Shown here one piece after another: positions 8,693 to 14,089 of a stretch of 64,000 nt of DNA. Every line of letters begins with the position of its first letter. Position 1 is the first letter of the stretch. Location of the stretch: contig NZ_CP073710.1 of assembly GCF_021184045.1 (NCBI RefSeq), positions 310,001 through 374,000 on the forward strand. Reading direction: 5' to 3'. Source of the DNA: Methanococcoides orientis (GTDB lineage Archaea > Halobacteriota > Methanosarcinia > Methanosarcinales > Methanosarcinaceae). Both the position numbers and the translations under genes were made by a program. The notes beneath the pieces were generated by a model that saw only the letters and a program-made list of their open reading frames with translations, made no database searches and was not told the origin of the DNA.

Positions 8693-9460
8693 TTACTCTT
8701 CTTTTTTCTTATTTGTATCTATCCTGTTGCGAAGTTCATTTATCCCTAACGTAGGTGCCACTTTTTTGGGACAGACTGCAACACACTTGTATACAGTGTC
8801 ACATCCCCATACGCCGGATTCTGAGTCCACGATTTCAAGCCTTTCTTTTCTATTGGATTCATTTTCCCTTGGGTCAAAATCAAAACGCCATGCTTTTGCA
8901 AGAGCTGCCGGTCCGTAGTATTTCCTGTCTCTTTCTGCAACAGGGCATGACCCGTGGCATATTGCACATAGGATGCAGTTGGTATATTGTTCAAGCTTGA
9001 CCTGTGTCTCCTGATCCATGATGTTCTCTTTTTCAGGAATCTCATTCTTCATCTCAAGCCAGGGTCTTACAGTCTCCAGCAGGGAATAGAACGGATCCAT
9101 ATTTACCACAAGGTCACGTATGACATCCAGGTTAGGTAGTGGTTCTATCAGTATTTCATCATTGTCTGTTTCTTTCTTCTTGTTAGCTATCAGGACCTCC
9201 GGATTCCCTTCATTCGTAGGTTCCTTCCTCAGTTCAGATACCTGTACCTTGCAGGCTAACCTTGGTACCCGGTTGATGAGCATTCCACAACTTCCACAGA
9301 CAGCACCTCTGCAAGAGTACCGGAATGTCAGGCTTCCATCAAGTTTTTCCTGAACATAGAACAATGCTTCCAGCAGATTCATTCCCGGCTTGTCCTCAAC
9401 CTCAAAGAGATCATACCAGACCTTTTCTCCATCCTGTCTTCTGATCTTTAGCTTGATCAT
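8693..9460 (-). CDS. fumarate reductase/succinate dehydrogenase iron-sulfur subunit
   Basis: A 255-aa SdhB/FrdB-like subunit. The N-terminal plant-type ferredoxin domain has 2Fe-2S ligands C50, C55, C58 and C70. Two C-terminal clusters follow: CxxCxxCxxxCP (CILCAICHGSCP) and CDTVYKCVAVCP, where the altered second motif fits a 3Fe-4S site. Its start overlaps the stop of the flavoprotein gene by one base. No membrane anchor gene follows, so the complex may be soluble and use a thiol or other donor, as in methanogen thiol:fumarate reductase. It lacks the C-terminal CCG domains of the ~490-aa TfrB of Methanothermobacter. Confidence 0.88.
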   Translation of the reverse strand: MIKLKIRRQDGEKVWYDLFEVEDKPGMNLLEALFYVQEKLDGSLTFRYSCRGAVCGSCGMLINRVPRLACKVQVSELRKEPTNEGNPEVLIANKKKETDNDEILIEPLPNLDVIRDLVVNMDPFYSLLETVRPWLEMKNEIPEKENIMDQETQVKLEQYTNCILCAICHGSCPVAERDRKYYGPAALAKAWRFDFDPRENESNRKERLEIVDSESGVWGCDTVYKCVAVCPKKVAPTLGINELRNRIDTNKKKEE

Positions 9461-11136
9461 CAGTAAGTCCTCCTCTGTGGCTGGAAGATCGTTATACTAA
9501 CATCTTTGTATTCCAGTCGTGGACCTTCCGGTGCGGGATAGGCGAGTGTGTGCTTTAACCAGTTCTTGTCGTCCCTTTCAAGGAAATCGGTCCTGTAATG
9601 TGCACCCCTGCTTTCTTCACGTACCAATGCTCCTAATGCGATGACATGTGCCAGGTCCAGCATACCCTTAAGCTCGATGGCATTGAGCAGTTCCAGGTTG
9701 AATTCCTTTGCTTCTGTTTTGACCATCAGTGATTTTGCTCTCTCTTCCAGATCTTTGATATCCCTGACTGCCTGCTCGAGTTTGTCGTGTTCCCTGAAAA
9801 CACCCACATTCTCCTGCATGGTCTGTTTCAGTTCCTGACTTATGCTGGAATAGCTTTCTCCATCTTTCCCCATCATTTCAGAAATTGCAGTTCTCTCACT
9901 ATCAAGTGCCCGTTTCAGAGGATCATCGCTCGCTTCTTTCAGTGATGCAACATACTCTGCTGCATGCACTCCTGCTCTTCGTCCAAAGACCACGGTGTCA
10001 AGGAGTGAATTTCCCCCCAGCCGGTTTGCACCATGAACACTTATGCAGGCACATTCCCCAACTGCATATAGCCCGTTAACAGGAGTAGCTCCGTCCTTGT
10101 TCGAGCAGATTCCACCCATTGAGTAGTGTTGTCCGGGCTGTACCGGGATTGGTTCCTCGACCGGGTCAATGCCTATAAAATCGATACAGATCTGCCTGAT
10201 ACCTGCCAGTCTTTCTTCGATAAGGTCTTTCCCAAGGTGGGTGATGTCCAGATGGACATATCCTCCGGGGAATCCTCTTCCCTCCTCGATCTCCTGCTGG
10301 ATAGACCTTGCAACGATATCTCTGGGTGCCAGTTCCATCGATGAGGCTGCGTAGTCTTTCATGAACCTTTCATGGTCCTTATTGTAGAGGTATCCGCCTT
10401 CACCCCTTGCACCTTCGGTGATCAGTATATTAGTGCCCCATAATGTTGTGGGGTGGAACTGTACGAATTCCATGTCCTGGAGTGGTACTCCTGCACGATA
10501 GGCAAGACTTATCCCAAAACCTTTGTTGATGATGGCATTGGTGGATTTCGCGTAGATTCTCCCATAACCCCCGGTGGCAAGTACTGTAGCTTTTGTCTTG
10601 AAAACCTCAAGTTCGGAGTTTAGCAGGTTCATAGCTACAAAACCCAGACATCTGTCATCCTCGATCACAAGTTTTGTTACAAGCCATTCCCTGTAGACCT
10701 TGATGCCGGCACGCAGGACCCTTTCGTGAAGTGTATGAAGAAGGTTGTGTCCGGTCCTGTCCCCTGCATAGCATGTCCTGGGAAATCCTGCACCTCCAAA
10801 AGGACGCTGTGCTATGGTACCATCATCCTTCCTTGAGAAATTGGTACCCCAGTGTTCCATTTCAAGAACCCTGTCAGGGGCTTCTTTACATAATATCTCA
10901 ACAGTGTCCTGGTCGGCAAGATAGTCGCTTCCCTTTACTGTGTCAAATGCATGCGATTCCCAGCTGTCATCGGAGCCAAGGGATGCATTGATACCTCCTT
11001 GTGCAGCTCCGGAGTGGCTGCGTATCGGGGGAACCTTTGAGATGATGGCTACATCCACTCCCTTTTCATGAAGTTCAATAGCACATCTGAGGCCTGAAAG
11101 GCCGCCTCCTATCACTATCACATCATGTGTGATCAT
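9460..11136 (-). CDS. fumarate reductase/succinate dehydrogenase flavoprotein subunit
   Basis: A 558-aa FAD protein of the SdhA/FrdA/TfrA family. It has an N-terminal Rossmann motif VIGGGLSGL, the FAD-attachment region HSGAAQGG, and the substrate-site pattern QFHPTT with later catalytic HGANRLGGNS. It catalyses fumarate/succinate interconversion with the downstream Fe-S subunit. ATG overlaps the fumarase stop by four bases (ATGA type), so translation is probably coupled to fumarase. In methanogens this pair belongs to the partial reductive TCA branch. Confidence 0.93.
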   Translation of the reverse strand: MITHDVIVIGGGLSGLRCAIELHEKGVDVAIISKVPPIRSHSGAAQGGINASLGSDDSWESHAFDTVKGSDYLADQDTVEILCKEAPDRVLEMEHWGTNFSRKDDGTIAQRPFGGAGFPRTCYAGDRTGHNLLHTLHERVLRAGIKVYREWLVTKLVIEDDRCLGFVAMNLLNSELEVFKTKATVLATGGYGRIYAKSTNAIINKGFGISLAYRAGVPLQDMEFVQFHPTTLWGTNILITEGARGEGGYLYNKDHERFMKDYAASSMELAPRDIVARSIQQEIEEGRGFPGGYVHLDITHLGKDLIEERLAGIRQICIDFIGIDPVEEPIPVQPGQHYSMGGICSNKDGATPVNGLYAVGECACISVHGANRLGGNSLLDTVVFGRRAGVHAAEYVASLKEASDDPLKRALDSERTAISEMMGKDGESYSSISQELKQTMQENVGVFREHDKLEQAVRDIKDLEERAKSLMVKTEAKEFNLELLNAIELKGMLDLAHVIALGALVREESRGAHYRTDFLERDDKNWLKHTLAYPAPEGPRLEYKDVSITIFQPQRRTY

Positions 11137-12488
11137 TTACCCACTCCTGTCATGGTGATGGGATCAAGAAGCTTCTCTACGTCTTTCACATCCATTATGT
11201 TCATATCCTTTACCACTTCGATTATGCTCTTATTCTCCCTGTGTGCAGTATGTGCGATCTCTGCCGCCTTCTCATAACCTATGCTTGTTGCCAGTATGGT
11301 GACAAGAGCAAGGCTCTGCTTTGATAGTTCTTCACATCGTTCTCTGTTCACAGTGATCCCCCGAAGGCACCTTTCTGTAAAGGAGATCGATGCACCTGTG
11401 AGGATCTCTATTGAGCTAAGAAGATCATAGGCAAGTACAGGGGTGAATACGTTGAGTTCGAACTGTCCTCCCTGTGCAGCCATTGTTATTGTTGTATCAT
11501 TCCCGATGATCTGGAAACATGCCATGTTAAGCATCTCTGCCATCACGGGGTTCACTTTCCCGGGCATGATGGAAGAACCGGGTTGTATTGCTGGGAGATT
11601 GATCTCACCGATACCTGCTCGCGGACCACTTGAAAGAAGACGTAGGTCATTTGCGATCTTGATAAGGGTCACAGCAATACTTCGCAGTGCACCCGATGCT
11701 CCGAGAATGGCTTCTGCAGACTGTGTGGCTTCAAATGCATTTTGAGCCAGCCTAAAATCCTGGCCTGTGATATGCTCCATCTCTTTTATTGCCAGCTGTC
11801 CGAAATCTTCCGGTGTGTTCAGCCCGGTACCAACAGCAGTGCCTCCCATGTTCAGCTCCTATAGGCCATCAATTGCAACTTCAAGCCGCTTGATCCCAAG
11901 TTCAAGCATATGTGCATACCCGGAGAATTCCTGGCCGAGTGTAACAGGCACTGCATCCTGCAGATGTGTTCTTCCGGGTTTGACGATCTCCATGAACTCA
12001 GCTGACCTTTCAGCAAATACTGTCAGCATTTCCACAAGTGCAGGCATGAGCTCTGAATTAATGGTCTCCACAGCAGCAATGTGAATCGCAGTATGTGTTG
12101 TATCATTTGAGGACTGGGACATGTTCACATGGTCGTTCGGGTGTATTATGTCATAATGTCCCTTTTCAAACCCAAGGATCTCAAGTGCCCTGTTGGCAAT
12201 GACCTCGTTTGCGTTCATGTTCTGTGATGTTCCTGCACCTGACTGGAACGCATCTACCACGAACTGGTCATCGAACTTACCTTCTCTCACCTCGGATGCA
12301 GCTCTGATTATGGCTTCTCCCTTTGTGGTATCAAGCTTTCCGGCTTCCATATTCGCACGTGCTGATGCCATCTTTATTGCAGCCTGTGCTTTGACAAAAG
12401 AAGGGGGCAGCCTCTGGCAGCTGACCTTGAAATTATGAACTGCCCTTGTTGTCTGAGGGCCATAATAGGCATCCTCAGGCACTTCCAC
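11133..12488 (-). CDS. fumC: class II fumarate hydratase interrupted by an in-frame TAG
   Basis: One continuous class II fumarase frame apart from a TAG at 11861-11859. The N-terminal part (209 codons from GTG 12488) has YYGPQTTRA and SSNDT; the C-terminal part has GGTAVGTGLN and the family signature GSSIMPGKVNP. TAG falls in a loop where other fumarases vary. It also creates TAGGAG, a ribosome site six bases before ATG 11849, so the gene could give two polypeptides, one pyrrolysine protein, or be broken. The homologous N-terminus (RLEKDTLGEV) extends upstream to 12518, where the expected ATG is ATC after a run of seven G; GTG 12488 is the first standard start. First gene of the fum-sdhA-sdhB operon. 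Confidence 0.8.
11847..11861 (-). promoter_or_regulatory. TAG codon/ribosome-site junction inside fumarase
   Basis: Minus-strand reading is CTA TAG GAG CTG AAC ATG. The amber codon overlaps an AGGAG Shine-Dalgarno-like element that is six bases from an in-frame ATG. It could therefore act as a sense codon, or as a stop-and-restart point that makes a two-piece fumarase. Confidence 0.6.
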
Positions 12489-12598
12489 TTCCCCAAGTGT
12501 GTCTTTCTCTAAACGGATATAACCCCCCCGGGTTTATTTTATGCTTTTATTTTATAGGCCTGCTTTATAACCTTATTTTCTATGATATGCATCAGATC

Positions 12599-14089
12599 TC
12601 AGACATGTTCGATCTCGGTATGATCTGAAATTTCGGAATTTGTAGTGCAAAGGTCATTGATGCTTAATTTGTGAACATCATCATTTCCTGTGAGCCTTGC
12701 GAAATTCTCAAGTTCTTCGGTGGAAACTCTAAGGAAGTTCTCAAGTTTCTTTGCAGAAATATCGATCTTAAGTCTGGAACGAAGTTCTAGGTCCTGTGTT
12801 GTGACACCGACCGGACATTTTCCGGTATCGCATTGCCTGTATTGCTGGCAGGCACACGCCATGAGTGCTGCTGTACCTATGGCAATGGCATCTGCACCAA
12901 GTGCAAGTGCCTTTGCAAGATCGGAAGATACACGCAGGCCACCTGTAATGATAAGGGAAATATCCTTTATGCCCTTCTCATCCAGGAATTTCCTTGCACG
13001 GTAAAGAGCAAATATTGTAGGTATGGATGTTGCATTCTTAACAAATTTGAGTGCAGCAGCAGTCGCCCCCGGTCTGCCATCGATGGTAATGAAGTCGGGC
13101 TTTGCATAAACAGCAATTTCAAGGTCAGCTTCGATATTGCCTGCAGCCATCTTGATGCCGATAGGTTTGCCTCCGGAGGTCTCTCTGAGCCAGTCAACCT
13201 TTGCTTTCAGGTCGTCCTTGCTTCGGATATCATCAAAATGAGCAGGACTTACGATATCTGTACCTTCCGGAAATCCCCTGATCTCCGCCAACTCGTGTGT
13301 TACCTTCTCAGCGGGCAGGTGTCCGCCCATGCCAGGTTTTGCGGACTGTCCGATCTTGATCTCGATAGCATCCACCTTTTTGAGATTATCTTCGGTGGCG
13401 CTGTATTTGTTAGGCACATATTCAAAAATATACTTGTGGGCTTTCTCCATGCTCTCTTTAAGGATGCCGCCCTCTCCTGAGCACATTGCAGTCTTTACAG
13501 CAGCACTTCCCATTGCAAGGGCCTGTTTAATTTCACTGGATAATGCGCCATATGACATATGGGTAATGAACACGGGAGTTTCAATAATAAGTGGATGCTT
13601 TGCTTTTGGGCCAATGACGGTGTTAGTGTTGACAGCTTCATCCTCGTTAAGAGGCATCTTTGCAAGCTGCGCCCCTTTAATAAGGATGTCATTCCATGAA
13701 ACCACATCCTGCTTTGTCCTCATCGGTTCGAGTATGGATTCACCACTAACAGAGATTTTGTGGATGTCTTCCATGTAGCTTTCAGTAGTGTCAGAGTTTC
13801 TTCTCCATTCTCCAAGATAACCACTGATGTCTATTTTTCCAAATTCTGATACTGTGATCTTACTTTTTGTACCACATTTCGGACAGGTGACTATCTCTTC
13901 TGAAGTGATCTCCTCGATCTCTTCTTTTTCAACAGGCATCTGGTGGTTCTTGTCAGCACCACATATCGGACAGCGCCAGTCGTCAGGGAAATCTTCCGGC
14001 TTTGTTCCGGGTTTTATGTCGGTGTTCGAGTCTCCCCTTGTATCATCATACTCAAAAGCACCACAGACGTTGCATCGGTATTCGCTCAT
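12599..14089 (-). CDS. rubredoxin-fused glutamate synthase (GltB FMN domain) family protein
   Basis: A 496-aa protein. Residues 1-50 form a rubredoxin domain (CNVC and CPIC pairs). A short zinc-ribbon-like CPKC follows near 69. From about 100 onward is the FMN-binding alpha-subunit domain of glutamate synthase, with [15 protein letters not shown] and [10 protein letters not shown], and a [15 protein letters not shown] cluster near 410-425. In archaea this domain transfers electrons to make glutamate from 2-oxoglutarate and glutamine-derived ammonia. The attached rubredoxin suggests direct reduction by a rubredoxin-type carrier, and a stand-alone rubredoxin gene lies just upstream. Confidence 0.85.

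Follow-up and report, generated by a model that had tools for sequence, protein, structure and literature searches.

We identified in Methanococcoides orientis a class II fumarase gene (fumC) that carries one in-frame TAG, and we consider it very probable that this UAG is read as pyrrolysine, the rarely used 22nd amino acid, at a tolerant site, giving a single full-length enzyme. The gene occupies positions 11133–12518 on the minus strand of the window (the whole 64,000-nt stretch that was analysed, positions 310,001–374,000 of contig NZ_CP073710.1), and the TAG lies at 11859–11861 on the same strand, which is codon 222 when the GGT at 12524 is counted as codon 1. Standard annotation splits such TAG-bearing genes in two or labels them pseudogenes. 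The initial annotation of this locus had treated pyrrolysine insertion, a split enzyme and a new pseudogene as roughly equal options, a parity that does not survive comparison across the genus, where read-through is strongly favoured.

A fumarase frame with a single TAG and class II sequence on either side of it, as originally proposed, is borne out by profile searches. Its two halves match TIGR00979 end to end (model positions 2–217 and 224–457), the read-through protein matches TIGR00979 and NF008909 at full length and contains the Pfam domains Lyase_1 and FumaraseC_C, and the plus-strand translation is nonsense, the coding frame running on the minus strand from window position 12518 to 11133. 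Counted from its likely AUC start, the product comprises about 461 amino acids. It scores 576.7 bits against TIGR00979 (cut-off 664.75) and 559 against the aspA equivalog (cut-off 681.2), and it passes the cut-off of the broader NF008909, labelled aspartate ammonia-lyase; since both equivalog cut-offs are missed, the models alone do not fix the substrate. An assignment as fumarase rather than aspartase is nevertheless preferred, because HPNDHVNMSQSSND in the product is identical to that of the class II fumarase 4hgv and differs from SPNSHVNMSQSTND of aspartase (1j3u), and because the gene is followed by an sdhA-like flavoprotein gene (9460–11136, minus strand; TIGR01812, 787 bits), which adjoins fumC in all nine members that have it, and by an sdhB-like iron–sulfur subunit gene (8693–9460, minus strand; NF004616, TIGR00384). 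The HPND and SSN motifs also fit fumarase. On the upstream side lies a gene with a rubredoxin and a glutamate-synthase-like domain (12599–14089, minus strand), which has no part in the recoding. A predicted model of the product, built on a 12-sequence alignment (mean pLDDT 73.7), has TM scores of about 0.84–0.90 to FumC and aspartase structures; in it residue 222 comes directly after helix 196–221, so that the enzyme would carry pyrrolysine at the end of this long helix, immediately ahead of the conserved ELNMGGTAVGTGLN segment.

The span first assigned to the gene holds as to its frame, but its first codon is ATC, and in the six main-clade species the stretch from the upstream stop to the conserved protein offers no in-frame ATG, GTG or TTG. 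Upstream of fumC the DNA varies in length and frame among these species; from GGT-TAT-ATC-CGT onward it is conserved with synonymous changes and holds the R, E, D and G residues that are invariant in the family. A run of seven G (12523–12529, minus strand) precedes the conserved protein and is probably its Shine–Dalgarno site; because its length varies between species (7 or 8 G), it is not coding. The simplest reading is thus that translation likely begins at a non-canonical AUC (12516–12518, minus strand), 4 nt past the G run and at the point where the conserved protein begins. In the other clade a GTG is found a few codons upstream of the conserved start, and the fumC remnant of M. burtonii has an ATG there.

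The distribution of the TAG codon across the genus carries much of the argument. Loci that match at 82–95% identity are assigned to Methanococcoides. Nine of the 11 Methanococcoides members searched keep fumC, and codon 222 is TAG in seven of these nine, CAG (Gln) in one and TGG (Trp) in one; both sense codons are a single base away from TAG, and neither TAA nor TGA occurs at this codon in any of the nine. Seven genomes, each assembled separately, have TAG at this codon, which rules out a sequencing error, an assembly artefact or a chance match as its source. The persistence of TAG, as opposed to TAA, is by itself weak proof of sense use, given that 18 of 53 comparable G-ending codons (about one third) also stayed G. 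On a gene tree built without codon 222, a TAG ancestor requires two steps and the best sense ancestor three; most likely, TAG would have arisen once, in or before the ancestor of the genus and before its species split, and was then kept in seven species and exchanged for Gln and Trp in two lineages. In about 100 relatives the corresponding site holds Leu, Lys, Glu, Ala, Arg, Thr and other residues. Because the site tolerates many residues, pyrrolysine at codon 222 is probably near-neutral. One further genome (G108) has a single TAG in its open frame; the codon-222 site there is CTC (Leu), so that its TAG sits elsewhere. Two genome-wide predictions of pyrrolysine proteins do not mention fumarase; the only Methanococcoides genome that they include, that of M. 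burtonii, is without fumC.

Selection on the gene bears directly on the idea that TAG has disabled fumC and that a class I fumarase has taken over its role. All 11 members of the genus do have an intact class I-type fumarase gene, six species lack a canonical fumC start codon, and in one genome (G005, which we take to be M. burtonii) one deletion has taken out most of fumC and all of sdhA, with fumC codon 84 now running into the middle of sdhB (locus L148, 6035–6360), so that fumC was lost together with its operon. In the species that keep the gene, by contrast, dN/dS is mostly 0.04–0.09, around 0.06 both before and after the TAG, despite high synonymous divergence (dS of 0.1–0.85 within the main clade and about 1.2–2.5 between clades); in the second clade, comparisons of close relatives give values of up to 0.2 for the part ahead of the TAG. 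None of the nine fumC copies contains a further stop, an indel or a length change, while in a neutral simulation at 15% divergence only 0.35% of copies stay free of stops. Equal purifying selection on both halves, together with the lack of any other stop or indel in these copies, excludes a pseudogene for the TAG-bearing species, and we regard loss of function as having a negligible chance of being the right account. The second intact fumarase, which had been named in advance as favouring a pseudogene, thus turned out to be present in every member without making the conserved copies pseudogenes. With a second fumarase present, a full-length product may not be needed; fumC can be dispensable, as it is in M. 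burtonii.

The machinery for decoding UAG is in place. The M. orientis genome (2,494,162 bases, one contig) has the full pyl cassette, comprising pylT, pylS, pylB, pylC and pylD; the tRNA-Pyl gene pylT has the anticodon CTA, PylS, PylB, PylC and PylD each score above their curated cut-offs in profile searches, and pylS was found in all 11 members searched. The tRNA-Pyl charged by PylS would then decode the fumC UAG at codon 222, and decoding of UAG as pyrrolysine requires no special element (PMC2933860). We infer the identity of the inserted residue, its neutrality and the efficiency of read-through. As read-through of a UAG introduced into M. acetivorans reached only 20–30% (PMC2933860), some truncated fumarase is to be expected, and its share may be substantial unless UAG is read more efficiently in Methanococcoides.

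The use of TAG elsewhere supports the view that it behaves as a general sense codon in Methanococcoides. In a sample of 458 kb (18%) of the M. orientis genome, 313 genes called with a simple codon-usage script end in TAA (158), TGA (151) or TAG (4), and three of the four TAG 'ends' continue into conserved homologous protein. Besides the fumarase, these are an FrhB-like/YHS-domain protein (locus L128, 18718–18720, plus strand), in which the codon is TAG in six species and TAT (Tyr) in four, and a subtilase (locus L136, 11710–11712, minus strand), in which the nearest relative and several others have CAG (Gln). The fourth is pylB (locus L127, 6129–6131, minus strand), where the 42-codon extension is not coding-like; TAG apparently acts there as a genuine stop, so that UAG can also terminate, and pylB likewise ends at TAG in M. 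burtonii and others (PMC2933860). Samples beyond the M. orientis genome were small: in that of M. burtonii, two of three TAGs lie inside a gene, one for a GNAT acetyltransferase (locus L188, 8035–8580) and one for a VWA-domain protein (locus L190, 13643–15268), and in that of another genus of the family (G110) only 1–19 codons follow the TAGs, as after true stops.

Two other accounts leave the gene functional. Ribosomes might stop at the TAG and restart at an ATG four codons on, the two polypeptides together forming an active fumarase. A restart site was proposed in the TAGGAGCTGAAC stretch (11850–11861, minus strand) ahead of the ATG at 11849, and in M. orientis and two other genomes AGGAG does stand 6 nt before this in-frame ATG; moreover, selection on the second half would be the same as under read-through. 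The TAGGAG motif ahead of an ATG, as initially described, does exist in M. orientis, but it is not conserved, reading TAGGAA in four of the seven TAG species (G004, G007, G010 and G009), which makes it less convincing as a ribosome site. The ATG encodes Met226 of the family and is equally present in relatives without TAG, which indicates that neither it nor AGGAG arose for restart. In addition, codons 223–225 (E-L-N), which lie between TAG and ATG and would be left untranslated, show only synonymous changes among the TAG species, with E223 and L224 invariant in the 12-sequence alignment, and the variants at codon 222 include two sense codons and neither of the other stops. The pattern of conservation around the TAG thus favours read-through, and we consider a split enzyme highly improbable. 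A regulatory role for the UAG, which is compatible with its reading as pyrrolysine and would refine it, is in our estimate also improbable: the UAG would be retained for coupling the output of fumarase and sdhAB to the supply of pyrrolysine, in that completion of fumarase, and through the overlapping ATGA also translation of SdhA, would rise only when pyrrolysine is plentiful on methylamines, tying fumarate metabolism to substrate choice. TAG is indeed kept in most of the genus, and the overlap of the sdhA ATG (11136–11134) with the fumC TGA, noted initially and found in the fumC-bearing members, means that termination at UAG could reduce sdhA translation. Against such a valve, TAG was replaced without trace in the Gln- and Trp-bearing species, and comparable TAGs occur in unrelated genes. 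Nor is the initially assumed dependence of sdhA on ribosomes finishing fumarase forced, because in M. orientis a Shine–Dalgarno-like AGGAG stands 7 nt upstream of the sdhA ATG, so that SdhA need not depend on read-through.

Pyrrolysine insertion into one full-length fumarase, the reading we prefer, has several counterparts among known systems. In the methylamine methyltransferases MtmB, MtbB and MttB, the UAG is decoded by the same tRNA-Pyl system and pyrrolysine is held to be catalytic, whereas the fumC site varies and is not part of any known active-site motif. An archaeal 'Pyl code', with TAG serving as a pyrrolysine codon throughout, has reportedly been described by Kivenson et al. (in Science, in 2025). 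The sampled Methanococcoides resemble it in that TAG is nearly gone as a terminator and serves as a sense codon in unrelated genes, but differ in that pylB of M. orientis still ends at TAG. A close parallel is the tRNA-His guanylyltransferase Thg1 of M. acetivorans, in which, according to the account that we draw on here, TAG is translated as pyrrolysine and activity is independent of it (Heinemann et al. 2009, in PMC2933860). As with fumC, the enzyme that has the in-frame TAG is an ordinary one and its host a methanogen with pyl genes, and the pyrrolysine of Thg1 appears, on that account, to be neutral. As far as the same account extends, the Thg1 TAG is confined to M. acetivorans and its pyrrolysine is translated, while the fumC TAG is common to seven species and was apparently replaced twice, its product being predicted from sequence. 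The kind of recoding is thus already known; what is new is fumarase as its carrier, the conservation of the codon across species and its traceable exchange for Gln and Trp, which make fumC a cleanly traceable case of the entry of pyrrolysine into an ordinary metabolic enzyme.
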